Source: Tubulanus polymorphus
Taxonomy: Eukaryota; Nemertea; Palaeonemertea; Tubulaniformes; Tubulanidae
Assembly (NCBI RefSeq): GCF_964204645.1
Contig: NC_134027.1
Location: forward strand, 15,240,485-15,304,484
Direction of reading: 5' to 3'
Length of the DNA: 64,000 nucleotides
Shown here: in pieces, positions 21,945 to 63,821 of the stretch
Numbering within the stretch: position 1 is the stretch's first letter
Layout: every line of letters begins with the position of its first letter
Program-made: the position numbers and the translations under genes
Notes under the pieces: generated by a model
Databases searched by the model: none
What the model saw: the letters and a program-made list of their open reading frames with translations, nothing else
What the model was told of the DNA's origin: nothing

Positions 21945-21976
21945 CAGTCAATTTCAGTGTCCCCCAGTTGACAGTG

Positions 21977-22321
21977 AGTAATTAGGAAATGGCGTTTTCA
22001 TACCAGAGGTCGAGAGGTCGAGACACCACTCATCACAGCTAGGCTCTAGTGAGAACGGACGATTGCTCTGTGATACACATATACAGTGAGTGCGCGTAAC
22101 AACAACTGCGCGTGGATAGATAGATACAGTGAGTCGCTACTGAGAACGGTTATTAACGCGTGTGCTATTACTGTAGTACAGTGATTGCGTGTCAACTGTG
22201 CCCGGATAAATAGATGCTGTGAGGCTTGGGTGAGAACGGTTAATAGCGTGCTTGTTATATACAAGGGGAAGTACTCCCCACTCATTACCACAAGTAATTT
22301 GTTTTCCTTATAAATGGGAGA
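21977..22321 (+). repeat. E3 left terminal inverted repeat
   Basis: Inverted partner of 32,353-32,697, differing by a few bases. It contains GAGGTCGAGAGGTCGAGAC near the tip and CACTGTA/GTGAGAACGG phrases repeated inside. The inner edge is ATGGGAGA, the PolB start codon region in the right copy. Confidence 0.92.
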
Positions 22322-22417
22322 TTGAGTACAGAGGAATTAAAAGATTTAGAAGGATTTAAAATAATCTATCATGGAAAAAATGAAGTTGGTCATCATGATT
22401 TAGAAATTGTTGATTAA
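22322..22417 (+). pseudogene. C-terminal remnant of small terminal Polinton gene (E3)
   Basis: About 31 codons on the plus strand, directly fused to the inner edge of the left terminal repeat. It reads LSTEELKDLEGFKIIYHGKN and then a short acidic tail and a stop. It matches the C-terminus of the 110-residue E1 protein (LSSEDLGELCSGNFYFIYKGKN). The rest of the gene was lost where the terminal repeat was copied in. It shows that this gene once sat at the left end of E3, on the strand opposite to the other E3 genes. Confidence 0.6.
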
Positions 22418-22494
22418 ATTTTAAAAAAATAAATTAATAAAAATAATGAATATCTAGAATCCTAAATGACTTATCTGGACAATTTAATTGCTCC

Positions 22495-22919
22495 GCATAG
22501 ATAGACAAAAGTAGTGAGATATTCAATTAATTTAGAAAAATTATTTTTTTGCTTTTTTTCTAAAATATTAATCCATTTTTTTATTATCAATTTTGGAATT
22601 TCAGAAGTATTTTCATTTTTGATAGCAGTTGTTTAAGATTTATAAATATCATGAATTTTATTTGATTTCTTATACCAATTACACCCAATCAAAGTGAATA
22701 CAATTACAAATCCAACTGTAAAATATAGACATTTATCAAATATTCTATTATTAGAAGGAGTAGAAATAACAATATTTTACCATTTTTATTAACATTTTTA
22801 TTACTTATTTTTTCTTTTACAGCTTTTTTATATTCTTGTGATTTAATTCCTAATTGCCGAGACCATTCAATTTGTTTCGGACTTCTCGGTTTTTTCTTCA
22901 CTTCTTCCACCTCGCTCAT
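22495..22919 (-). pseudogene. Small basic Polinton protein with membrane segment, frameshifted (E3)
   Basis: The N-terminus is MSEVEEVKKKPRSPKQIEW followed by SRQLGIKSQEYKK, a basic motif that I recognise as recurrent in invertebrate Mavericks. A shift near 22,775 moves the coding frame to a second frame that encodes a hydrophobic segment (LYFTVGFVIVFTLIGC), and this then meets a stop near 22,635. Its first ~50 bases overlap the end of the upstream gene at 22,867-23,457. Related text with the same overlap occurs at 59,130-59,222 in E5. Function is unknown; a small DNA- or membrane-associated virion protein is possible. Confidence 0.6.
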
Positions 22920-23457
22920 TTAATATAGAAATATTTTTACTTTCAATATTTGAAAATGTTATAACTCCAGTTGATAATAATGTCATAAATCCACCTAATT
23001 GAAATGATAAATATCCAATCCATTTATTTAATTCGGTCATAACTAAATAATCATTTTTTAAATCAGCATATAATCTATTTTCATCTTGAATTGGCAGCAT
23101 ATAATTACATAATTTACTATAACCTTTTACTACATTTTCTGATATCGCGTCATTAATTCTAGCTGTTCTCGCGGTTTCATAAATCTTAAATAATCTAATA
23201 ATTTCATCTGATTTCATTGTATCTAATTCATTATAAGTTAAATTTTTACCGATAAAATTTTTACATTTTCCAGATGCTATTAATATTTCTAATTGATGTT
23301 TACAATAAAGATAATATTCATAATTATTATGTGTTGTAACATAATTTAAAGCACCATCATCTGGAGTTAATTTTGTTTCTGTTATTCCTAAATCATCTAA
23401 AGTTTTTTCAATTGGAACATCACCATTTTTAGATTTTATTTTCTTTTCACCCGCCAT
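22867..23457 (-). CDS. Conserved Polinton protein of unknown function (E3)
   Basis: 196 residues, intact. The N-terminal half is charged. The middle holds the segment FKIYETARTARINDAISENV followed by a Tyr/Pro stretch and DENRLYADLKNDYLVMTEL, a conserved phrase of Maverick accessory proteins. A weakly hydrophobic stretch (~150-175, WIGYLSFQLGGFMTLLSTGV) lies near the C-terminus, followed by an acidic tail. A homologous but broken copy lies in E5 at 59,226-59,565. It follows the packaging ATPase and precedes the small basic protein, whose start overlaps its stop. I cannot assign a function. Confidence 0.65.
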   Translation of the reverse strand: MAGEKKIKSKNGDVPIEKTLDDLGITETKLTPDDGALNYVTTHNNYEYYLYCKHQLEILIASGKCKNFIGKNLTYNELDTMKSDEIIRLFKIYETARTARINDAISENVVKGYSKLCNYMLPIQDENRLYADLKNDYLVMTELNKWIGYLSFQLGGFMTLLSTGVITFSNIESKNISILNERGGRSEEKTEKSETN

Positions 23458-23479
23458 TTATATAACAAAAAAATTAGTT

Positions 23480-23762
23480 CTGTTGTTGCAACTAGAATTC
23501 AACTAGAATGTAACTAGAATTCAACTAGATTAACAAGCTAGTTGAAATATTGTTGTTTTTATTTATTTCTTATTGAATTTTATTTGATTTTTGTTTCAAC
23601 TACCAATAACTAGAATTCAACTAGAATGTAACTAAAAATATACTAGATTAACAAGCTAGTAAAATATTGTTGAATTTTATTTGATTTTTGTTTCAAATAC
23701 CAATAACTAGAATTCAACTAGAATGTAACTAAAAATATACTAGAGTAACAAGCTAGTTGAAT
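23480..23762. repeat. Three-unit tandem repeat between E3 genes
   Basis: Units of about 105 bp built around AACTAGAATTCAACTAGAATG and AACAAGCTAGT, separated by TTTTATTTGATTTTTGTTTCAA. The TAGTTG/CAACTAG parts are mutually inverted, so each unit can fold. It lies between the ATPase stop and the start of the 196-residue gene. Confidence 0.8.
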
Positions 23763-24371
23763 TTAAATAAATTCATATTTAAATGGGTGTTGTAATCTAA
23801 ATAGTAATTTTGATCTTTTAATATTTTTCAATTTATCCATATATTCATTATGTAAATCATGCGGAATAATATCATTTTCCTCAAGCGCATTTTTCATAGA
23901 TTTTCTATCTTTATTGTAGAATAAAACTAAAAATCTAATGTTTTCTCTAAAATCTTTAATAATTGAATTATATTTTTGATTCAAAACCCATGTTGTTATC
24001 CCGAAATGTCTACCAGAAAAAGCTAAATAACATAACTCACTCTCTCTAATTTTTGAATCATGTAAATTTGCACAATCATCTATGATAAATAATGTATTTG
24101 ATCCTTTATAAATATCTATTGCTATTTTTATACAATTATCTAAATTTTCTTTTACTGTTTTAGGATCTAATATAATAAATTTATTATTTCTAGTAATATT
24201 TCTGTCATAAGTTTGATTAAATTCATATGTTGGACAAAATAATACTATATTATCAAAATAGTTTTTATAAACAGTTTCTAATAAATTTCATATGAAATAA
24301 GTTTTTCCACAATTTGTTACGCCAGAAATTAACATATTATGAGGCTCAAATATAAATAATTCCTTATTCAT
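23763..24371 (-). pseudogene. DNA-packaging ATPase (HerA/FtsK type), one stop (E3)
   Basis: About 203 codons, starting at the Met of MNKELFIFEPHNMLI at 24,371. Walker A is GVTNCGKT (~18-25). Walker B is NTLFIIDDC (~85), followed by a SGRHFG segment. A single TGA lies three codons after Walker A (near 24,292). The E4 copy keeps a sense codon there, so this is a nonsense mutation rather than a family feature. In Polintons and related viruses this ATPase pumps DNA into the capsid. The stop codon abuts the tandem repeat, and the start is adjacent to the integrase stop. Confidence 0.85.
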
Positions 24372-25502
24372 TTATATATTTTTAATTTTACTTGATAATA
24401 TCCATTCATTGAATTTATCTGGCCATCCAACCCATTTTACTAAAGAATATTTTTTTCTTTTAACAGTTTTTGTTTTTAATCCTTTTTCAATTTTATATTC
24501 TTGTTCTAGATTTTCAGTAGTTAAACTTAATTCTTCTTCGTAAAAGTAGCCATCAACTTCTTCACCATCTAAATCTTCTAATTTATAGACACATGGTTTT
24601 TTTGTTGTTATTACCTTTTTTATATTATATATTTCCCTAGTAAAATTTCGATCGTATCCCTTGTCAAATATCTTTTTATACTTAGAAATTCTAACATTTT
24701 GACCAATTTTAAATTTAGGTTCACCAAAATCATCTACAAGAAATGCTCCATATAAATTATTCCAAACAATTTCAGCATTTTCAGGTTTTCTAGCATCAAT
24801 AGGTTTCATTCCAATAGAAGAATGATAAGAATTATTATATCCTTCTATCATTTTTGGTAAAACATCAATCCATTTAAAAGTATTATTTGCTGTAAAATAT
24901 TTCCACATTCTTGTTCTTAATGTTCTATTAAATCGTTCAACAACTGCTGCTTTTTTATCCGATTTTGTTGAAAAATATTTAATATTATGATTATCTAAGA
25001 GTTCATGAACTAGTGAATTATCAAATTCTTTTCCATCATCAAATTGTATTTTTTCTGGTTTCATTATATCATCCGAAAGAAATTTTCTTAAAACATTTGA
25101 TGTTTGTACAGCATATTTTCTATAAAGTGGGAAGCTCCATACATAACGACTAAAAATATCAATTATATTCAATATCCACCAATAATCATCATTATCTTTC
25201 TTAACATTTTTCATATCAATTAAATCTCCTTGCCACTGTTGATCTACATAACTTACCATAGTTTTACGAGTTTTATATTTTCTAACAATTTTTTTATGTG
25301 TTGTATATGTTGGTTGTTCTAACATAAATTCATTTATATCTTTATATTTAACTAAATTTTGTTGGATTATCTTATCTAATTTATCTTGTTTTACTTGACG
25401 CCATATATTTTTGTTAGAAAAATAAGCAACCGAACTCTCAGGGTTGTAATATAAATTTCTTAAATATTGTTCTTTAGTATTAGGGGTTTTTTTACCGCCC
25501 AT
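24372..25502 (-). CDS. RVE-family integrase with C-terminal chromodomain (E3)
   Basis: 376 residues, intact; the best-preserved Polinton gene here. The retroviral-type integrase catalytic core spans ~85-245: first Asp D93 (WQGD), second Asp D155 (QFDDGKEF) and Glu E189 (AVVERFNRT). A region of basic beta-strands follows, and then a chromodomain at ~332-376 (VKWVGWPDKFNEW). It would join element ends to the target with the 6-bp stagger seen for E2 and E3. The chromodomain may tether it to modified histones, which could bias insertion into silent chromatin and fits the clustering of elements in this window. The start Met is followed by GGKKTPNTKEQYL. A 15-residue C-terminal relic of the same gene lies at 55,024-55,061. 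Confidence 0.93.
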   Translation of the reverse strand: MGGKKTPNTKEQYLRNLYYNPESSVAYFSNKNIWRQVKQDKLDKIIQQNLVKYKDINEFMLEQPTYTTHKKIVRKYKTRKTMVSYVDQQWQGDLIDMKNVKKDNDDYWWILNIIDIFSRYVWSFPLYRKYAVQTSNVLRKFLSDDIMKPEKIQFDDGKEFDNSLVHELLDNHNIKYFSTKSDKKAAVVERFNRTLRTRMWKYFTANNTFKWIDVLPKMIEGYNNSYHSSIGMKPIDARKPENAEIVWNNLYGAFLVDDFGEPKFKIGQNVRISKYKKIFDKGYDRNFTREIYNIKKVITTKKPCVYKLEDLDGEEVDGYFYEEELSLTTENLEQEYKIEKGLKTKTVKRKKYSLVKWVGWPDKFNEWILSSKIKNI

Positions 25503-25556
25503 TTATATATCCTTAATTTTAACTTTATATTTCTAATATTGAATACTATCTAATTG

Positions 25557-26775
25557 TCAATTTACAATATTTAATTGTGCGTCAGATATAATATAAATGT
25601 GCATTTTAAAATTTAAGCTTCCTTTTTTCTTTTTCATGAATAATTGTATTCCATCTTTAGTGTTCTGTAATTTTTTTCCAGAACCATGTAATGAATTATC
25701 CTCTGTTGTTCTAAAATCTAACCATAATTCATATTTATTGCCGGTATAATAATCAATTTGATTAATATTACAATTTTCAGATGATTTTACTTTTTCATTC
25801 ATAAAATGTTTTCTAATTTCTGGCCATTGAAATATCATTCTCATTCCTTGACAAAATATTTTATTTGCTATTCCTTCGATAGTTATTTCTACTTTTGTTA
25901 TTTCAGGATTATAATAATTATCTACCTTTATTGCGCCATTAGAATATGTTGCAATGGTAAAAAATATTAATATACCTTTAATAGATCTTCTTGGGAAGTT
26001 AATATTCTCATTAATTATTTCATCATTTGCATTAATAGTTACAGTTTTAAATTTATCAATATAAACATATAATAATGAAAATCCTTGATTGTATTGAGTT
26101 TGAATTGTATTAGCAATATTTTCATTAGTTACTGTATTATATTCTAAACATATATTCGATAATTTATAACCCATATCTTTAACAACGTTAGATAATACAA
26201 TTTCATTTAAAGGAGCAAATGTTATCTCAAATATAATATCTTCTTGAATTGCATATTTATATAAAGGTGCATTATTATTTATCAATTCAAAGTCAAATGG
26301 AATTTTATATTTGCTTCCATAAATCTTTTTAATCAAATTATCTACGTCATTAGGTACTACTGCATTATTGGCTTCAGATCTTAATTTATTTTGGTTTTCC
26401 GATTGAATGCCTTGAAATATCATATTATTTCTATTTTCTTTAGTTAACCATAAATCTTTATAATGCATAAATAAATTATAATTATCTAATGAGAAAAAGG
26501 TTTCTGGTCCAATCTTTAAAGTTAATTTTTTAATCAAATACCTTCCAACATTATCAACAACATAATTATTATTATTACCAGTTACTTTTATATCGGCTGA
26601 TAAATAAATACTATTTGGAACATAAAAAGTATTTTGTGTTAATCTAGGGATTCTAACATATAAAGTTTCATCGGGATTAATATTTGAAGGATTATGAGTA
26701 ATTATATGATCTTTCTGCTTTAATAGCATTAGATATTCTAGAAATCTTAGAAGGACTTATATAACTCCCACTCAT
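25557..26775 (-). pseudogene. Polinton major capsid protein, N-terminal 5-bp deletion (E3)
   Basis: About 405 codons, of which 390 are one open frame (25,557-26,729). Family phrases include VRIPRLTQNTFYVP near the start, IPFDFELINNNAPLYKYAI and IIFEITFAP in the middle, NINFPRRSIKGILIFF and KVEITIEGIANKIF in the second half. This is the double-jelly-roll-type capsid protein predicted for Polintons. The true start is MSGSYI at 26,775, as in both E4 copies. A 5-bp deletion about 20 codons in shifts the frame, so the long frame lacks the native N-terminus. Everything else appears sound, so the lesion is recent relative to those in PolB. Confidence 0.85.
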
Positions 26776-26794
26776 TTATTTAACAAAAAAATTA

Positions 26795-27219
26795 ATTATT
26801 TATTTTTTATTATTTTTTCTTGATATCTTTTTGATATCATGTTTACTAACCCAAAAATAATTGCACTTACAACTGTAATTAAAAATTAAATAATATGTTC
26901 AGCAGCAAAGTTAATAATGTTTCCTGCAGATTTCAATATAAAACCAACAATTGATGCAATAATTCCTGGCAATGCTGCAGCAGATTTTTTAGATAGTTCC
27001 CATAAATATTTTGCTAATTTCTTTAAACCATCTTTAACTTTATCTTGTATAGAATTATTATCATTCGGGGGTTTATCCGGTTTATTGGGAGTGGGAGTAG
27101 ATTTCAAATAATTTGATATTGCTAAACCAATTGTTGTAAATAACATAGTTACAGCTGTTAGAATTGAAAGAATTGTTATTCCTTCTAATTTAAATAATAA
27201 CTTTATTCTATCTTTTAAG
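26795..27219 (-). pseudogene. Hydrophobic Polinton protein, 5'-truncated (E3)
   Basis: The frame is open from 27,219 to 26,886. Upstream it is cut off at the hairpin; the E4 copy shows a lysine-rich helical N-terminal part that is missing here. Hydrophobic segments are SILTAVTMLFTTIGLAI (~27,165-27,115) and ALPGIIASIVGFILKSAG. After an in-frame stop at 26,886 a third hydrophobic segment (VVSAIIFGLV) is still readable, and E4 shows it was once continuous. The protein is a recurrent Maverick protein lying directly upstream of the capsid gene. A membrane-active minor virion role is plausible but not shown. Confidence 0.65.
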
Positions 27220-27629
27220 AGTAATAGGGGTAATGGGCTTTCAGGTTAAAGGTTGAATGGTCGAGTTCATTAAAAACAAATATTAAAAGTAATTTAAAAC
27301 TATAATATATTTTCATAACCGTGTGTATTTCAGTTGAATAATAGAATAACTATTATTATTTGAATATATTTGATTATATGAATTTGTGTATTGTAAATAA
27401 ATCAATTGGTCGCGGAGCGTAGCGGTAGCGAAGTGGAGCGACCAATTGATTTAATACAATATGCATCTAAAATTTAAATTATTGATATCTTAGAATAAAT
27501 ATTTAGTTATAATATAAAATGCACACGGTTATGAAAATATATTATAGTTTTAAATTACTTTTAATGTTTTGTTTTTTAATGAGCTCGACCGTTCGACCTT
27601 TGGCCTGAAAGCCCATTACCCCTATTACT
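27220..27629. repeat. 410-bp hairpin of Polinton-type ends inside E3
   Basis: Near-perfect inverted repeat: AGTAATAGGGGTAATGGGC at 27,220 pairs with GCCCATTACCCCTATTACT at 27,629. The arms are ~130 bp and include the paired motif GGTTGAATGGTCGAG/GGTCGAACGGTCGAG. At the centre is a second hairpin, AATCAATTGGTCGC...GCGACCAATTGATT. No 6-bp duplication flanks it (TTTAAG versus ATTATC), and coding sequence is missing on both sides. It therefore replaced a segment rather than inserting cleanly. Confidence 0.85.
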
Positions 27630-30600
27630 ATTATCATTGCTAAATAGTTCATGATCTTTGGGATAATTGCTAAAATCAAAATGATGTTTTAAGGTTTTTA
27701 AGTCTTTTGTTATGTCATTTGTCTGGATTTTTAGTATGTAACTGTCAGTATTGAAGCAAATTAATGGAAATCCACAGTTGAATGTGCCATCTTCGGTTGA
27801 TAAATCATAAACATTATCTGTTGGGTTATATATGTCAAATAAATCTTTAACTTCTTCAGTTAAATCTTCTTCTGTGTGGCTTAAATTAAAGCAATTTGGT
27901 TTAGATTTAATCAATCCAATATTCATATTGAAGCCTAATGAATTACATAATATATTTAACCCTGATATTGCAACTTTTCCTTTCTGTGCAAAGGTTAACT
28001 TTTTATCCTTTGTAAATTTTTTAGCACCATCTGCTGCGTAGAATCCAATGAAGAACCATTTTCTTAAATCATTTTTTGCATTTACTACATAATCTGGAAC
28101 TATCTTTTCTTTAGTTGAAGTATTACTTTTCACTATTGCATGAATATAGAATTCATCATTATATTTTATAGCAAAATCTTTAGGGTTATTAACAAGTATT
28201 CTATAAACTGCTGATGATTTCATAACATCCATGATTTTAAATGTTTTATTTGGATAAACTTCTTCACAATATTTCTTTATTCTTTCTAATAATATCAAAT
28301 CTTGATTGCACAAATACCAACAATATTTATTACCCCAAACATATTTATACACACCTGCTGAACCATCTCCCATAAAAAAATCCTTTGATAAAATATTCTT
28401 TTTCTTCCAATGTTTCGGGTTCTATATTATAAATATTATCAATAATTTCATCGGATGACATAGGATTCATTCTTGGGTAAAATCTTTTATGTAATAATTC
28501 ATCTCCAATTTTTATATCAGTTGGTTTTATTTCATCACCATTTTGTTTAATTAAACTATGATCTTCAGTAACATCAACAAATCCTAATTTAGTTCTAACT
28601 CTATAGAATTTCTTATTTGTTTTATGCCTAATAATATTCTTTAATTTTTTCCATCCATTTCTTGTCCAAACATCCATTAATCCATTTATTTGTATTAATT
28701 CTTTTTCACCATACGAAATATAACATTCATTTTGTTTTGGAATTATTTCTGAAATTCTTCTTATCAATATTTTATCATTACATTTTAATAATATTGGGGT
28801 GTCAGCTGTTACAGAATCAAAATATAATATTTCAATATGCTTTTCCCCAAAAAGTGGTTGTAAAACATTATAATAAAAATCATACATTAATAATTTTGAT
28901 ACTTCTAAAACCGTTGAACCAATGAATATAGGTTTATTAAATTTCATTGACGTTCTTTTTAATTTAACTGCTGTTAAATAATCTTCAAATCTTTTATTTC
29001 CTAAATGTCTAGGACTTGATTGTAAATGTCTTAATCGTTCAGAATTATTTACTAATTCAATATCATTTCTATTTCTAATATTTTCACATGTTTTACCATA
29101 AAAACTATTATTCATTAATTTGAAGAAATCTTTTTCAAAATCTGTTTTCGATATGGTTCTCTGTTGAGTATTAAAATCTATATATTTTTCTAACCACTTC
29201 GATTGATTAAATTTAATATATCTATGTACTTTCTTTAATTTCATTCCTTGTTTTAGATAAAATTTTAACATTCTATAATGAACAATATAATTGTATTTAT
29301 TATTTTGAGTAAGTATTAATTTTTCTGTAAAAACATGATCTTTCGGTTTTATTTTCTTCTGGTATTCACTTAAATAACTATCATCTACGGTTAAATGTTC
29401 TGGGCAATAAGGTAAGTTTCTTGTTTTAAACTTTATATTTTCAGGATATTCTAAATCAACTACAAAGAAATAACCGATTGGTGCTTCATCTTTTAAACTC
29501 GCAATTGCGCTTTCCCAATCAGTTTTATCATCATTTTCAACTTCTGTTAATATAAAATTTTTATTTGGTTGAGGTTGCATCATTGCCCAACCATATAGAT
29601 TATTGGCGTCAATATATAATAATTTATATTCATCATTTGCTTTAAAATACCTATCTCCCATAACACCACTAATTCCACCTCTAATTGATTTTTCAAATAA
29701 TAAAACCATGTCTGGTTCTTTTAATAAATCTAATTCTACATTTGTATATTTTAAACCACATTGCCAGGTTAAACCAGGACTTGAATAACAATAACAAGGA
29801 TCAACATTAAAATGATTTAAATTTACTTCTCTAAATTTTTCAAATATGTCAGCCAATATCATAACATCTGATTTTAAATATAAATCAACTAATTCACCAT
29901 GATTTTTCATCTTAAAATGGTTCCAAATATTTAATGTTCTATTAAACACTTCATCTTTCACATACTCCTCTTTTAATTGATCATAAAATTGATCTTTTAA
30001 TAATTCTGTTACATTAAAATCATTGTGTGTTTTATAAAATGAATAAGGAATTGCACCTTTATATCTCAATAATTTAAAATCTTGTTCATTTGGATAATAA
30101 TATCGAGTTATAACAAAATCATTATCAACTAAACTTTTTGATAAATTATCTAATGAACTTGCTAGAAATCTATAAGAATCTAAAAATCTAACGCAACCAA
30201 ATTGAAATGAAATATAATTTTCAGATGTTTTAGCTAATAGTTTAAAATCATATTTTCTTACATTTACACCATTCGTAGCATTATATTCTTCTATTTCTTG
30301 ATTAATTGTGCCCAATTTCCTTGATAATTGTTTTATAAATAGATGGGTATCATAGCCTGATAAATTATGAAATAATATTGGTACGAAATTAACTTTCTTA
30401 GCTTGTAAATTACAATCTTCAGAGGCAGCTCCACGATATTTTGAATTTAAATGATCATGATCTCTAACTTTTTTATCAAATGAATAAAAACGTTTTTCAC
30501 AATAACAACAATGAGTTGCATAATTAAAATCAATTTCATCTTCTTATGTCATAACTATTCTTTTATTTTTGTTTAATAATTTTGCAAAATCACTTTCTAA

Positions 30601-32360
30601 TTCAATCATTTTGTCACAAAAATCATTAACTACATCTTCACCTCTAAAAGAAATATATTGACTTTCATATAATTCGGGATAATTTGATTTGATGTAAATT
30701 CCATAAGCAGCAGCTCTTTGATGAACTTTTTAAATTGTATTTATAATTGGCGGGTCTTGTGTTGTGTCTTCATTTAATTCATTTCCTTTATCCATTGATT
30801 TTAATAATTGCTTTTTTTATATATTTCTTTTCTATCTTGATCAGTTAATTCTTTATTCAACGATTCAAAATCCCCATAAATTACAAATGGAACAATATTC
30901 TTAAATTTATGATTAGTAAATTTCAATTTATAATCTTTTTCTGTTGGCATTATTAATTTACAAAAATCTTTATTATCACATAATTCTTTATGTTTTAGTA
31001 ACGCATTCTCAGTTCTAGATTTAGATAAACATTTTCTACATAGATAAATTTTATGACTGTTAAAATCACTTTCTGTTCTAAAGAATGAATCAATTTGTTT
31101 TAACCACATATAATGTCCATTTTCATCTTTTTTGTAATATAACAAATCTATAGCATTTTCATCATCATAATATTCTGTTAAATATAAAGCTTCCAAAGTA
31201 TAATCTTTAATATTTTCACCTTTTGTATTTGGTAATTGCATTAATTCGAATACATTTATTTTTAACTTATTAATTTTTTCTATTTTGGGTATCATTTTTA
31301 TAGTTACTGGATATTGATCAATTTTATATAATTTTTCATATTTCCGGTAATTTGTTATTCTAAAACTATGCGTAATATCTTCTGTTGGGTGTAAGCAACT
31401 AATAATTGACCATAGAAAACATTTATTATCTTCATTTGAACATTTATTACTGCTTTTGTTGTAAATGGTAATTTAATATAAGACGATGCTTTAATATCCT
31501 TTTCTGTTGTAAAGTTTGAATCATTTTTAAACATTGTTTTACTTTTTGATGTTTTATTCCTTTTTGTATTATAAACATTTAAATCTAAAAATATAATTTC
31601 ATTTAATGATAAACCAGAACCCTCAAAATATCTTTCTTCAATATGACGTTCAAATTCATTAAATATTTTTTCTAACTTCTCTTTTATTTGCGTTTTTTGA
31701 AATTATTTCTTCAGAGAGTGTTTGAATATTATAATCCATTTTCTCTTCTGACTTTAAAAAACTTACTTTCCCAGAGATACTATTTTTTGGATATTCAACA
31801 TCTGTTATCAAATCTAGTATTTTTTCTATTATTTCATTAAATTTACTATAATCTTCTATTGTTGTACCTTTAAAAAATCTAAATATAATAGCTGCAGGAC
31901 CAATTTTACTACGTAATGTTTCTAATATTTCAATTGTATCTTTTATTTCTAGTGAATCAATATAATTTCTAACATTTTCCATGTAAGGTTTATTTGAAAT
32001 GGATTTAGTTTTTGAAGTTGGATTTTTTACTTTTTGAGGTTTATCATCGAAATAATCTTTTCCTAAAACATTATTACTCAAATTTTGATGGTGTTTTTGT
32101 GATTCGAGATGTCTATTATAATTCCTCTTTACTATAAATTCATTACAAACTTCACATTTTATTTCATCCACATTCATATTTTCTAATCGTTCTTTTCTTT
32201 CATTGGAATTTTCTGAAGTTTCAAAATCTATAACATTTTTTATATGATTTGAAGATTTTTCATGACGCGATTTTTGAGATTTATCAATGTATTTTTTACA
32301 ATATGGACAATAATATTGATTTTCATTAACATCAATTTGTTCTGTCTTATTCTCTCCCAT
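27630..32360 (-). pseudogene. Protein-primed PolB with zinc fingers and intein, broken and truncated (E3)
   Basis: Starts MGENKTEQID at 32,360, at the inner edge of the terminal repeat. Two C2H2-like fingers lie in the first ~100 residues; the GPAAIIF region and a Cys cluster (YLCRKC) follow. Polymerase motifs: Exo I IYGDFES (~30,870), Exo II HNLSGYD (~30,355), Exo III YLKSD (~29,870), motif A DANNLYGW (~29,600), motif B KLMNNSFYGK (~29,105). Motif C is split by an intein: it reads YFD before 28,815 and resumes TDS at 27,749. The frame breaks between 31,296 and 31,660, at a stop near 30,732, at a stop near 30,546, and within the intein. About 60 bp past the motif-C block, the C-terminal part is cut off by the 410-bp hairpin. 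Confidence 0.88.
27750..28815 (-). other. Intein with LAGLIDADG-type endonuclease domain in PolB
   Basis: 1,066 bp, i.e. 355 codons plus one base. Block A is SVTADTPILLKC, with Ser as first residue. Block B is GFVDVTEDHSLI, with the TxxH signature. Two LAGLIDADG-type motifs are FFMGDGSAG and FFIGFYAADG. Block F is VYDLSTEDGTFNCG; block G ends LICFN, followed by Thr as the first downstream residue. The last residue is Asn, as required for cyclisation; the residue before it is Phe instead of the more usual His. One extra base in a T7 run (28,374-28,380) shifts the frame just before the first endonuclease motif. The insertion point is inside polymerase motif C, between Asp and Thr of the YxDTDS-class motif, the site used by inteins of large DNA viruses and archaeal PolB. 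Confidence 0.9.
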
Positions 32361-32697
32361 TTATAAGGAAAAAAAATTACTTGTGGTGATGAGTGGGGAT
32401 TACTTCCCCTTGTATATAACAAGCGCGCTATTAACCGTTCTCACCCAAGCCTCAAAGCATCTATTTATCCGAGCACAGTTGACACGCAATCACTGTACTA
32501 CAGTAATAGCACACGCGTTAATAACCGTTCTCAGTAGCGACTCACTGTATCGATCTATCCACGCGCAGTTGTTGTTACGCGCACTCACTGTATATGTGTA
32601 TCACAGAGCAATTGTCCGTTCTCACTAGAGCCTAGCTGTGATGAGTGGTGTCTCGACCTCTCGACCTCTGGTATGAAAACGCCATTTACTAATTACT
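32353..32697 (-). repeat. E3 right terminal inverted repeat
   Basis: Inverted partner of 21,977-22,321. Its tip is ...CTAATTACT at 32,697, followed by the ACAGTG duplication. It contains GTCTCGACCTCTCGACCTC, the paired end motif. Confidence 0.92.
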
Positions 32698-32712
32698 ACA
32701 GTGTGGTGAAAA

Positions 32713-34724: not shown

Positions 34725-35267
34725 TAATGTCTATTTATTAATTGATGAGACCTGTTTTTCTGGGATATTTTGCTTACTTTTTGGGGTACATACCTCATTT
34801 ATGTCTTAACAGAATGCCAAAAATCGCGGACAACAACTGAATATCCGATATATTTCCAGTTCTGTACCAATTAGATGGATTGGCAAAAAGACTCCTCAAG
34901 TCCAGTTGAATGAGAGAGAAAATCCTCCATTTTGTCAAATTTGTTGGTTTTGAACATTGTTACCATGCCTACGCCACCCTGATTTAGTTGTTGAGACCCC
35001 ACAAGAAAAATTACTTTTCGTAGGCATGGTGACAATGTAAAAATTCAAGAAATTTCACAAAATGGAGGATTTTCTCTCTCATTCAATTGGACTTAAGGAG
35101 TCTTTTTGCCAATCCATCTAATTGGTACAGAACTGGAAATATATTGGATATTCAGTTGTTGTCCGCGATTTTTGGCATTCTGTTAAGACATAAATGAGGT
35201 ATGTACCCCAAAAAGTAAGCAAAATATCCCAGAAAAACAGGTCTCATCCATTAATAAATAGACATTA
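34725..35267. repeat. Foldback element with ~250-bp arms
   Basis: TAATGTCTATTTATTAAT at 34,725 pairs with ATTAATAAATAGACATTA at 35,267. The arms share long blocks (GGGGTACATACCTCATTTATG; CAAAATGGAGGATTTTCTCTC), and the loop is ~50 bp. No coding potential. Just outside, 34,692-34,714 is a perfect short palindrome around ATCCACTTTAATTTAAAGTGGAT-type text. No clear target duplication. Confidence 0.85.
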
Positions 35268-55061: not shown

Positions 55062-55562
55062 GATTTATGATGGAACAGAAATACCAATAAAAAAACCAAA
55101 ACATTCGACCTATTCGACCTATAAAAACAGGAATACTGTTAAAATTCTAGTTGGTGTGACACCAGGTGGACTCGTTAGTTATTTATCTGATGCGTAGGGA
55201 GGCTCGGCAAGTGACCGTCAAATCTGTGAAAGAAGCAACCTGGCAAATATGTGTGACCCAGGTGTTCAATTATGTCCGATAAAGGATTTAATGTCCAAGA
55301 CTTGTCCATACCTTCAAATGTTACTATAAATATACCCAAATTTTTCAAGAAAAAAAATAGGATGTCTGCCAAGTCTGTAGTTAGTGATAGAAGAATAGCA
55401 AGCAAACGTGTCCATGTTGAAAGGATTATTGGACTAGCCAAAACCTTCAAAATTTTAACTACTCCTCTTAACAATACTGAATCAGGATTGGCTGATGCAA
55501 TAGTAACTGTGTTTTTCTTTTTGTGCAATTTCAAAAAATCTTTTGTTCCTCTGGATGCATAA
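55062..55562 (+). pseudogene. DDE_4-type transposase, C-terminal fragment
   Basis: About 165 codons. It starts within the catalytic core at DGTEIPI (first acidic pair), then ILVGVTPGGLVSYLSDA, where a TAG interrupts (~55,194), SDRQICER, a frame change near 55,265, MSDKGF (second Asp), and finally HVERIIGLAKTF (the conserved Glu) before the stop at 55,562. The N-terminal domain is missing. This matches the DDE superfamily endonuclease type (PF13359) used by harbinger- and IS4EU-like elements; the YqaJ neighbour favours the latter. Confidence 0.75.
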
Positions 55563-57760
55563 TTAAAGATATAAATAAATTTGAAATGCAAAATGTATGT
55601 CACTAAAGAGTTTATAGAGTTTAAAGAGTTTATATAAAGTTTATTCAAAAATTGTACATTCTTGTGTTCTTGTAAAAATATTTTTTTATAAGAGCATTTC
55701 GGAAATATTTGAGATAAAATCGATCGATATGGGACATCTATGAACTGGATGTCTTTGAATGTGTATACAACAAATTTCGTCAGCGTTTTGTCAGAGCAAT
55801 ACATTTGTCCTTGTACCTGATAGTAATACGGATGAGTTTTACTCAGGTTGAAAAAAGTTCCTGACTTCGAAAGATACGGCACTGTTGTTTCATCGATGTG
55901 ATAATTGCGAGCTGAGTATGGACATTTCACCTCGATTAGAGTGTCCCCATCAATAACGCCATCCGGACTAGCTGCAAGCATCGGTTTCTGTTTCGATACA
56001 AACAAGCCACATTTATCAACATTGAGTCCGGTCATTTTTTCGAATTTCCGAATAGCTATTTTTTCAAATTTCTTTCCATGCTGTAAAGCATTGCTATTTA
56101 TATCAGTTGAAGACATCATATTTTTCAATAATGCCTCCACGTCTCTCCGCTCAGTAATCTTACAAATAGTTCCGAAATTCGACGCAGTAATCCTCTTTTG
56201 GTGCTTGGCTTTCCATAATTTAGAATCACTCTGAGCCCTTGTATTCGTTTCGATTTCTGCAATTTCACAGTCCGTGATGGATGAAACCTGAAAAAAAACA
56301 AAATTATGTTACATGTGCATGTTCAATGTTTTAACAATGAAAAGCTGTAATTGAATGAAATATCACCTTGGATTTAACAAGAAAGTCTTCTTCCATTGAT
56401 AATTTGGAGTAGTCGTGATCCATCGTTATAGATTCGATATCAGCTGGTGGAAAAAGTTGCATTATAGGCCTCCTAGTTCCATCCTGAAATCAACAAAAGG
56501 ATTAACGTAAAAACAAACCTGAATATTTATAACCAAATTTCTCAATCGGTCAGTTTTTCCTGGAATACTTCTCCGTTTAATGGGGCATGGGTCATATATC
56601 AGGGTTTTCGACTTTCCTCTGACTTCTCCCAACTGTCTTGTTTTCACTGGACTGCCTTTATGCGGTTTAGACTGATGAAATTTCTGAAGCACCTTGAACA
56701 TAATAAATGATAATTAGATTTCAAAACTCATAAGGCACACACTGTTTCAGGGTATCTATGTCTGAACTCACTTGAGAACAGGTTACTTCAGTCAATATAG
56801 TCCCAGTTTTCTTAAAGGACGCTACACCGTATAAAACAGTCACAACATGTTTACAGTGTGCTGTAGGGCCTTGGCCTACAGCACACTCACATTGGTACTC
56901 CAATATCACACCGTCACTATTCAGACTGATGTCCACAACATAGGATGTAGCTTTCCCCATTTCCGCCCAAATGTTGCCTTTCACAAAGTTCTGGTTTCAT
57001 CATTATCATCGGCAGACCTGACATAGCCTAAATATCTGAAATATAATATGTAACCTTTTACATATGATATCACTTATTTCAATACTTTCTTTTGGCCTCG
57101 GCCTATCATAGATACTAACATTCAACATTACCTTTCGTTGTACAATTGTTCAACCTTTTCATCAATAACTTTGTCCCAGCAGGTTAAGTAATCGGTCAGT
57201 CGCTCAGTTGAAATCGGAGGGAATTTAACTCTTATTCCATCGTGAATATCCTTAAACTCCGATACATCAGGAATCTGCATATGGTATTCCACGGCAGGTT
57301 CAGCTGGCCTTGAATTTCTATCAGCAAATATCAAACTGAAATATTAAATACGAATATTAATTCAACATAAAAGGCTACATGCAGTTTTATTTACTGTATT
57401 GAAAGAACGAGGAACGGCCTGGCTCTGTCTGGCGCAGAGCCAAGACAATTTTGCTTCCAATATACTCTGATATACTACACGTATTAATTCGAACAAGTTT
57501 GTTTTTTCTAATCATTCATGTAGAAATAGGCCTTTCACGTGATACATAATTCCTAATCATGAACATCATAGTCATTAACGAGCAATATCGGACCCGATAT
57601 TAACCTCAAAGCAAACCCGGAAGTAAATTCAAAACTTAAAATATTACCGATCAACGAGACTTTTTTTCTTGCCTGACACCATCAATCCTCTCTCACGACA
57701 TTTATTTTTCAATTCTTGAAGTGTTAATGAACTATGTGGTGAAGTTTGACCACTTTCCAT
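55175..57760 (-). pseudogene. SAP - SWIM - YqaJ nuclease-like gene (spliced)
   Basis: Exons by splice sites, right to left: 57,760-57,648 (SAP-like start, SLTLQELKNKCRERGLMV), 57,335-57,132, ~57,038-56,775 with a SWIM zinc finger (YQCECAVGQGPTAHCKH), ~56,694-56,520 (VLQKFHQSKPHKGSPVK), ~56,484-56,368, and 56,287 onward with the YqaJ/lambda-exonuclease-like domain (GLFVSKQKPMLAASPDGVI, LIEVKCPYSARN, HPYYYQVQGQMYCS). These carry the D...ExK nuclease signature (SPDG and EVKC). A one-base loss near 56,995 breaks the frame before the SWIM part. The last exon lacks an early stop and runs to 55,175, antisense to the transposase; the native end is probably near 55,600. Confidence 0.75.
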
Positions 57761-61227: not shown

Positions 61228-63821
61228 CCCTTTCACACTTTCATACATAATAATACGTACCATTTTTATTTTCTGTTCATGCTTTCATACGTGATATTAC
61301 GTACCTACACAGGGAAGCGAGGTTTTTGGTGGTAAAGTGTCATATCTACCTCGCGCGATGTTTCAAGGTCGTTGTTTTTATAAGATTGACATTTTTTCGT
61401 TTCTTCGGAGTTTACAGCGAGGTTACGAGTAGTTTTTTGTGAAAATAATGTCGAAAAGAACAGTTTCCCAAATACTGAACGATTCTATGTTTTGGGACGA
61501 TTCTTCTTGTGATGACAATCAGGCTAGAAGCAGTGACGACGATGGTTTTTCTGATGAAAATGTGAGTGAAACTGATAAACATTCTGTCAGTTCTGCTATT
61601 TCTGCTGCTGATGATACTTTGGAAGATGATGATGATGATGGGGACCAGAACAGTGATGATGGGTTTTCGTCAAGTGATGATGAACCATTACGTAGACTCG
61701 TTCCTGCAGTTAGGCCTAGGGCTAGAAACAACAAGCAATATCTTGCAAATATAGTCTGGGGAACAGACCTTCATGACCCTAAAGACATAAATTTTACAGT
61801 ACCACAGCCAGGTGTTTAAACGCAGCAACTGTTTCACGAAATACAGCTGTTGAAATCTTTCAACTGTTTTTCACGGAGTATTTGCTTGGTAATATTGTTA
61901 CGGAAACTAATCGATATGCTACCCAGTGTATGGCAAAGCCCCCCAAAGGTCAGAAACATTGCGAATGGCACGATCTTACTATTCCAGGACTCAAAACCTG
62001 GCTTGGACTATTGTTGAATATGGGTATTGTACAAAAAAGAGGTCAACTGAAAACGTACTGGTCGAGTGAATTTGTTACAATGATCCCTATGTTCTCAAAA
62101 ACAATGTCTGGTAAGCGTTTTATGAATATTCTCCGCTTCCTACACTTAGTCAATAATGAATCGGTTGAAATAGACAAAACAAATAAATTGTGGAAATGTG
62201 AACCTTTATTGAAATACCTGGTGAAACAATTCCAGAAAGCGTATATCCCACGTCGGGAGTTGGCAATGGATGAAACTATGGTCAAATTCAAAGGGAGATT
62301 AGGAATAAAACAATATATAAAAAATAAACCAACAAAATGGGGAATGAAGTTTTTCACCTTGGCTGAATCTACTAATGCATATGTATTGAATGTTGTACCG
62401 TACAGTGGTCAACGGGACGAGACTGATGTTGGGAAAACTACACAAGCTGTAATCGACGTATATGAACCATACTGGCATAAAGGGTATTGGTTGTTTACTG
62501 ACAATTACTAAACCAGTATTGAGCTTATGCTTGAACTAGAACCAAAAAGAATACTGTTATGTGGCACAGTGAATGCCAATAGAAAGGGTTTGCCTATAAA
62601 TATGTCAAAAACGTGTGCCGCAGTAAAAAAACTTGATCGTGGGGAAAGCATTACCCGTATGAGTGGTGAAATGATAGTTATTACCTGGAAGGACAAACGA
62701 GTTGTAAACCTATTATCAAATATCCCTGGCAGTAATGACAATACTAACATAGAGAGGGTGGGAAAAGGTGGAGATGCGAAAAATATTACCAAACCAAATG
62801 CCATCATTTTGTACAACAAATTCATGGGCGGGGTGGATCTCTCAGATCAACGGGATCTCTCAAATCATTGACGTGGTACCTGCAAATATTCTATCACATG
62901 TTTAGGCTGTCAGCAGTTCAGGCCTTTATTATTCATAGAGAATTGCACCCTGATTCAAAGAAATCACAACTTGAATTCTTTATTGAACTTGTCAAGGTTT
63001 GGTTGATGGACGTACTTATACTGGCAGGCAAGGTCGTCCATCCCAACAGTTCGAGGCTGCTAGATTCAATAGAAATCTTGTTCATGCCCCACTACGCCTA
63101 AACTCACAGTCAAAATGCAAGGTACATGTACGTCGGGTTAACACCCAGTTCATCTGCGAGGCTTGTGAAGTTAGAATGTGTCCATTCTCTTGTTTTCATA
63201 GATATCACTACATGGGCAAATATGAGTTTGATGATCCTGATAAAGTAGGTGCCAAAGTAGCAAGAAAGAAGCAGAGAAAGGTTTAGATATATATAAGTAC
63301 ATATATTTAGGTTTTTATTCAGTAATACAAGTATGTGAACAAGAATTTTCAACATATTCTAATGTTTAAGCTTTTTACTACAGTTTCACTATTCTGAGGT
63401 AGCACCCGCTACAGCCTGATAAAATCTGAATATATATTGAATTGATATATTATGTAATTGTATGTGTTATTTGAGGTTATAAGTCGAATAAAAAACAATA
63501 AACTTGTAAATTAAATGAATTCATACATTCAAAATAAACATTTTCAAATATGATCAAATATTTTGTTAAAAATTTTGATATTTTCACTTGGTTTCCATGG
63601 TAACTGAGGTGACTTTATTCCAAAATAAAACGGCTGAACCAAATATTCTGAGATGCATCTTGTAATTATCGACCAGAAAATATGTACTTTTATGGGACTA
63701 TCTCTTCAAAGTTGTGAGTTATCCAACTTTTCCTATCAGTGGTTTTAATTATTATCGCATACAAAAAACAATAGGAATCACAAAGGGGTCATTATGAAAA
63801 AAATATTTGAGTGAGAAAGGG
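61228..63821 (+). mobile_element. piggyBac-type transposon
   Basis: 2,594 bp with exact TTAA duplications (61,224-61,227; 63,822-63,825). Ends CCCTTTCACACTTTC and, read inwards from the right, CCCTTTCTCACTCAAA. It encodes one transposase reading frame with several lesions. It splits an HNH endonuclease gene whose halves flank it. From 63,287 to 63,821 the element has only 3' untranslated-type sequence. Confidence 0.92.
61448..63286 (+). pseudogene. piggyBac transposase, broken
   Basis: The N-terminus is acidic (long Asp/Glu runs, ~20-85) as in the family. Then comes the DDE core (DDE_Tnp_1_7): first Asp in AMDETMVKFKGR (~62,265), second in LFTDNY (~62,500), and FMGGVDLSDQ near 62,830 in the third catalytic region. 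The C-terminal Cys/His-rich domain (FICEACEVRMCPFSCFH) ends before a basic tail. Lesions: a frameshift near 61,817; a TAA directly after TDNY (62,509); a loss near 62,850 after DLSDQR; and a frameshift near 63,000. The start at 61,448 is the second Met of the frame. Length is otherwise near the usual ~600 residues. Confidence 0.9.

Follow-up and report, generated by a model that had tools for sequence, protein, structure and literature searches.

Inteins at the pol-c site of family B DNA polymerases (PolB), where the catalytic motif is split as YGD/TDS (slash marking the insertion point), are known from Mimivirus (Ogata et al. 2005, PMC549080), and the relevant passages of PMC1635734 give them as archaeal and viral. 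Ogata et al. made the case that successive transfers, for which DNA viruses could have been the mediators, brought pol-c inteins into distant PolB genes (PMC549080). PMC5871332 discusses giant-virus PolB inteins and how viruses with occupied and empty sites compete. For Polintons, the preprint PMC11071308 states that homing-endonuclease domains of diverse kinds sit at various positions in their polymerases (pPolBs), which it takes as suggestive of invasion by inteins, and cites a nematode study (Jeong et al. 2023); given that statement, finding an intein in a Polinton is no complete surprise. No such intein was described in the searched parts of PMC12220804, PMC3671162, PMC5718144, and PMC10120064. 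In the open-license literature searched, no description was found of an intein spreading within an animal nuclear genome, nor of occupied and empty copies accompanied by a site-centered diversity peak. The intein analyzed here is a further member of the known pol-c allele, in an unusually informative Polinton setting.

The window, meaning the whole 64-kb stretch of DNA that was analyzed, carries on its minus strand a Polinton PolB gene with an insert of 1,066 nt, running from the Ser1 codon that starts at 28,815 to the Asn codon that ends at 27,750. The flanking residues are HIEILYFD before and TDSYILK after the insert, and the motif therefore reads YFD/TDSY, split between Asp and Thr as claimed in the original prediction. 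Reading of the minus strand located block A (SVTADTPILL, 28786..28815, with Ser1 at 28,815), block B (VTEDHS, 28555..28572), a first LAGLIDADG motif with a frameshift inside it (28355..28391), a second LAGLIDADG motif (WFFIGFYAADG, 28026..28058, also covered by the predicted-fold match described below), block F (VYDLSTEDG, 27786..27812), and block G (PLICFN, 27750..27767, followed by Thr). The NCBIfam model TIGR01445, which represents the intein N-terminal splicing region, matched the N part of the window intein with 33.4 bits against a curated cutoff of 24.5 (E = 6.9e-8). The Pfam matches of the window's own pieces were weak and below cutoff (Intein_splicing, E = 0.012; LAGLIDADG_3, E = 0.047). 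When an uninterrupted genomic copy of the intein was scanned, LAGLIDADG_3 rose above its cutoff (32.7 versus 22.5 bits), while Intein_splicing stayed below (30.7 versus 35.8 bits). Neither of the refuting outcomes named with the prediction was observed.

An AlphaFold2 model of the C part of the window intein had a mean pLDDT of 78.3; the C-terminal splicing blocks fall within its last 37 residues, which were modeled at low confidence (<50). Compared with known folds, the model matched I-DmoI (E = 7.8e-8) and the archaeal intein PI-PkoII (2cw7; E = 1.8e-7). PI-PkoII was also the nearest solved structure by sequence, with E values of 4.5e-6 for the uninterrupted copy and 1.3e-4 for the window N part, and only 0.12 for the window C part. 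Together with the same-site relatives, these matches confirm the feature at 27750..28815 (minus strand) as a frameshifted copy of a pol-c intein with predicted Hint splicing blocks and a LAGLIDADG endonuclease in a Polinton PolB, at exactly the coordinates originally proposed. Two other readings of the insert were ruled out. That its residues are native to the polymerase is contradicted by uninterrupted copies of the same family in the same genome and by the 120 listed relatives of the sister-family polymerase introduced below, of which 117 are uninterrupted across the site, 2 carry the intein, and 1 does not reach the site. Chance occurrence of the motifs is contradicted by the TIGR01445 match and by the intein relatives recovered in the protein search.

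The carrier extends over 21977..32697 (no strand assigned), as defined by its terminal inverted repeats and target-site duplication. The repeats are 345 nt long and 97% complementary (left arm, 21977..22321, plus strand; right arm, 32353..32697, minus strand), the element begins with AG and ends with CT, and the 6-bp duplication ACAGTG flanks it on both sides (21971..21976 and 32698..32703). Long terminal inverted repeats beginning with AG and a 6-bp target duplication are hallmarks of Polintons (Mavericks), and we call this element a Polinton. All of its recognized genes lie on the minus strand. The PolB extein upstream of the intein includes one open stretch of the broken gene (28816..30543; DNA_pol_B_2, E = 1.5e-19) and, by sequence comparison, an N-terminal part in several frames (30544..32360); the downstream extein, likewise recognized by comparison, is cut short (27630..27749). 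An rve integrase with a chromo-like C terminus (chromo match below cutoff) occupies 24372..25502. Both the DNA_pol_B_2 and the rve matches exceeded their Pfam cutoffs, which bears out the proposal of a Polinton polymerase as the carrier. The 390-residue product of 25557..26729 gave no Pfam match, but its model (mean pLDDT, 86.7) had giant-virus capsid proteins as its best Foldseek matches (E = 5.4e-16 in PDB and 1.8e-18 among viral models), and by this predicted fold it is a capsid-type double jelly roll. At E values of 0.001 or better, 200 matches to this protein were obtained, one of them from the coral Oculina patagonica (36%). A packaging ATPase and a cysteine protease were not seen among the element's scanned open reading frames of at least 100 amino acids.

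Several other features were observed in the window. Adjacent direct repeats of 97 nt, 94% alike, lie within the Polinton at 23490 to 23789. Outside it are a near-perfect 249-nt inverted repeat (34725 to 35267; 96%, arms 45 nt apart), a YqaJ-like viral recombinase domain (55175 to 56140), and a DDE_Tnp_1_7 transposase fragment (61882 to 62511). No Rfam match reached the gathering threshold anywhere in the 64 kb, and a search of the assembly for COX1 gave no match.

Judging from its reading frames, the window copy of intein and polymerase is a dead, decayed relic. The 1,066 nt of the intein are not divisible by three, with the change of frame falling inside the first LAGLIDADG motif, and upstream of the intein the polymerase gene is likewise split over several frames. 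Similarity to the polymerase stops at 27,630, next to an inverted repeat of 61 nt.

The genome assembly (267.8 Mb, 77 contigs) was searched with the intein C part as the query, and the best 150 of 544 first-look candidates, including the window, were scored. The other 149 places were 78 to 91% identical to the query, and 11 of the 150 lay in uninterrupted frames of 1,686 to 1,690 codons. For residue-level comparison, 34 occupied copies (8 C-part loci including the window, the 11 uninterrupted copies, and 15 from the flank search described below) were translated in the frame of one uninterrupted copy. The catalytic residues were nearly invariant across these copies. Ser1 was kept in 33 of 34 and Thr+1 in all 33 that could be read; the block B Thr and His (TxxH) were present in 34/34; the two LAGLIDADG endonuclease Asp residues were found in 33/33 and 31/32 readable copies, the block F Asp in 33/33, and the terminal Asn in 32/33. 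Internal gaps of 67, 134, 290, and 305 columns were present in 4 of the 34. The residue before the terminal Asn was Lys in 17, Phe in 9 (as in the window), Val in 5, Ala in 1, and Thr in 1 of the 33 readable copies and never His; in same-site relatives, Lys, Ser, His, and others occur there. A penultimate His in block G is usual for inteins but does not define them, and its consistent absence here suggests that splicing may be slow.

Among the 11 uninterrupted copies, the intein showed a dN of 0.045, a dS of 0.19, and a dN/dS of 0.23, compared with 0.010, 0.13, and 0.08, respectively, for the polymerase from codon 600 to the site. The intein is thus under purifying selection in these 11 copies, which were chosen for being open, and within this genome it evolves faster than its polymerase.

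Empty sites were sought with the polymerase sequence just before the intein as the query. The best 150 of 1,615 candidates were scored, all of them 96 to 100% identical, and 20 places with no listed intein nearby were fetched, long open frames being favored. Fifteen of these proved to be occupied, 4 were exactly empty, and 1 was empty with Thr+1 replaced by Ile. Across the best 150 flank places, 113 were occupied (98 listed and 15 shown by fetching), 7 were empty, and 30 were not assigned either way. The intein therefore occupies the large majority of one Polinton family, and the search for occupied and empty sites within the species, suggested in the original prediction, returned both kinds. 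A natural uninterrupted 200-codon stretch was then used as the query, and the best 150 of 1,827 candidates all spanned the site unbroken, 9 copies from the occupied family at 95 to 100% identity and 141 at 79 to 82%. The latter represent a sister Polinton family; between its polymerase and that of the occupied family, identity is 64% upstream of the site and 81% downstream. A listed intein followed the polymerase in 0 of 150 places from a further Polinton search, many of which coincide with sister-family places; as the listed inteins are the best 150 of 544, rarer occupied sister cases may be missed. One sister-family copy, L093, has occupied-type sequence on both sides of the site and no intein, and may be a recombinant or a case of loss. 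The window itself also contains, at 1 to 2783, the N-terminal part of a sister-family PolB, 83 to 91% identical in three stretches and cut by the window edge.

To compare the flanks, 34 occupied, 9 empty, and 11 sister copies were aligned with one uninterrupted copy as the anchor. In the empty and sister rows, two bases bordering the intein gap were placed on its far side, and the codon before the site was omitted for these rows. Synonymous divergence was calculated for the 11 uninterrupted occupied copies, all 9 empty copies, and 11 sister copies out of the 141, the majority of these 11 picked for their long open frames; the copies are a nonrandom sample. Divergence was low over most of the gene and was raised within approximately 117 codons before and 30 to 60 codons after the site. 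Upstream of the site (three windows of 39 codons), dS between occupied and empty copies was 0.78, 0.44, and 0.99; downstream of it (two windows of 30 codons), the values were 0.69 and 0.28. The corresponding values among empty copies were 0.63, 0.45, and 0.78 and then 0.59 and 0.15 (0.00 to 0.22 elsewhere); among sister copies, 0.55, 0.55, and 0.74 and then 0.50 and 0.21; and among occupied copies, 0.36, 0.20, and 0.62 and then 0.24 and 0.16. For dN, the range within these groups and between occupied and empty copies was 0.003 to 0.041. Diversity at 4-fold sites near and far from the insertion point was 0.248 and 0.047 for occupied, 0.317 and 0.044 for empty, and 0.376 and 0.110 for sister copies (23 to 28 near sites each). 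The most diverse 4-fold window overlapped the site in all three groups, starting at codon 1077 or 1078, with the proviso that neighboring windows overlap and their ranks are not independent.

Exact 30-mers common to the main and sister families were most numerous just before the site, with 5, against 0 to 3 in each of the other 123 windows, 12 of which shared one to three. Smaller dS peaks were seen elsewhere, at codons 636 to 675 in the sister family (0.567) and at codons 831 to 870 in occupied copies (0.378). The first of these is a second synonymous peak, strongest in the sister family, and is possibly another exchange site. The haplotypes shared between families in 12 other 30-nt windows, together with the other dS peaks, indicate that exchange is not confined to the intein site. 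This raises the alternative that the main peak arises from general recombination or from silent-site selection in a conserved region of the polymerase and has nothing to do with the intein, an explanation to which the peak in the sister family, with no listed intein, also lends weight. We consider it unlikely, as in the empty copies the four windows adjoining the site have a higher dS than any other window of the extein, the maximum falls on the site in occupied, empty, and sister copies alike, and the equally conserved codons 1026 to 1065 show no peak. If the intein is the cause, the peak in the sister family requires cutting or conversion without gain of the intein.

The peak could also reflect escape, with silent changes in the target blocking cleavage, empty copies persisting as a result, and selection favoring resistant sites. 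Silent changes are indeed frequent within 15 codons of the site, and one empty copy has the Thr+1-to-Ile replacement. The peak, however, extends approximately 117 codons upstream, far beyond the 12 to 40 bp given as the target length of homing endonucleases (PMC549080), and escape as the source of the peak is accordingly rather unlikely.

In trees of the distal and middle segments of the polymerase, occupied and empty copies were intermixed. In the near-flank tree, all 11 occupied copies formed one clade (support, 0.84) nested inside paraphyletic empty copies. These topologies bear on two further explanations. Under the first, the intein entered a single Polinton once and was multiplied with the element as a passive passenger, the empty copies being an older lineage and homing playing no part. 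A single clade of the genome's inteins (represented in the trees by 5 copies) and the presence of the intein in the large majority of its family would both be expected, but occupied and empty copies would not be expected to separate only near the insert, nor dS to climb toward it, and we regard this history as quite improbable. Under the second, the empty copies are losses, the intein having been precisely removed when its carrier recombined with an intein-free copy of its own or the sister family. The flank haplotypes common to both families at the site fit such removal, as does L093 with its occupied-type flanks; the nesting of occupied copies among paraphyletic empties is instead what is expected if the empty state is the older one, and loss as the general origin of the empty copies appears distinctly unlikely.

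The dS peak, the tree pattern, and the shared 30-mers were read as traces of cut-site repair from any available Polinton template. Overall, a homing intein with co-conversion in Polinton PolB is probably the best explanation for the sequence data, and homing among the Polinton copies may be regarded as well supported but not proven. In the proposed mechanism, the polymerase precursor would splice the intein out and so rebuild the catalytic motif. The endonuclease would cut at YFD/TD in other Polinton copies whose polymerase gene is uninterrupted, and repair of the cut would copy the intein in along with a few hundred bases of flank. At times the cut would be patched instead from another intein-free copy, including copies of the sister family. 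Homing of this kind could have brought the intein to the large majority of one Polinton family, and the mixed flanking haplotypes around the site would be the halo left by homing and repair. With occupied, empty, and sister copies, this one genome offers a natural experiment on homing, conversion tract length, target range, and loss that needs no crosses, and if the host is an animal, it would represent the spread of an intein within an animal nuclear genome.

A protein search with the intein returned 274 proteins, of which the best 120 were examined. Among these were five Polinton-type polymerase inteins: P0001 (63% identical), P0002 (48%), P0003 (47%), and P0009 and P0011 (both 41%). Nearly all other listed relatives carry the PF00136 PolB domain (giant-virus and cellular polymerases) and are 29 to 42% identical, and in another six, which are topoisomerase-type proteins, the intein again lies between D and TDG. 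By sequence, then, the nearest relatives among the matches listed appear to be the five Polinton-type polymerase inteins, followed by giant-virus-type PolB inteins at pol-c, a label that rests on Pfam domains and the literature and includes one polymerase delta, from the alga Chloropicon primus. Relatives are also encoded at 36 listed loci on viral contigs, and a search of viral contigs for relatives of P0001 found none.

A tree of 119 inteins was built from 114 of the 120 listed proteins (six with unclear ends were dropped) and 5 of the 11 uninterrupted copies, and in it the ten Polinton-type inteins formed a clade with a support of 100. In an unrooted tree of 31 inteins, the Polinton group was split from 21 giant-virus-type inteins with a support of 100/99, and the branching order within the Polinton group was without resolution. 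P0003 is only 22% identical to the genome's family in its polymerase (extein) and 49% identical in its intein, and this pairing of a distant extein with a near intein suggests transfer of the intein between polymerases. A significant conflict between intein and extein trees was not supported, as the AU test did not reject the alternative, extein-like grouping without P0003 (P = 0.385). The proposed connection with viral inteins is supported by the shared site and the protein trees, but the trees give no direction of transfer.

On this evidence the intein would belong to a lineage that it shares with giant-virus PolB inteins, and Polintons that bear capsid genes and the same intein are plausible links in the pol-c transfer chain. 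A broader reading, which we offer tentatively as a real possibility rather than a favored conclusion, is that of a gene drive at work within one nuclear genome, the driver being a homing intein of viral type. It would spread among hundreds of dispersed Polinton copies, and its endonuclease would turn the polymerase motif into a hotspot of gene conversion across families, remodeling even the sister family, where the intein was not found among the places listed. Polintons with capsid genes would then serve as vehicles by which pol-c inteins move among animal genomes, giant viruses, and other lineages of Polintons.

Among described systems, a close counterpart is the Mimivirus PolB intein, which, according to PMC549080, interrupts YGD/TDS at pol-c, begins with Ser, has the Thr and His of block B and a LAGLIDADG endonuclease, and is 351 residues long versus 355 here. 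It sits in a giant-virus PolB, whereas the present intein sits in a Polinton polymerase. Unlike the Mimivirus case as described there, a single genome here holds many dispersed copies, both occupied and empty, and His is absent from the penultimate position. The archaeal polymerase intein PI-PkoII (PDB 2cw7 and 2cw8) was among the ten best folds for the window C part but differs in its length of 537 residues, in its archaeal origin, and in an identity of only 17% to the window C part over the aligned fold. The Polinton-type inteins P0001, P0002, P0003, P0009, and P0011 share the site, are 41 to 63% identical, and fall into one clade with the genome's copies, whereas their exteins are only 22 to 50% identical to the window's family.
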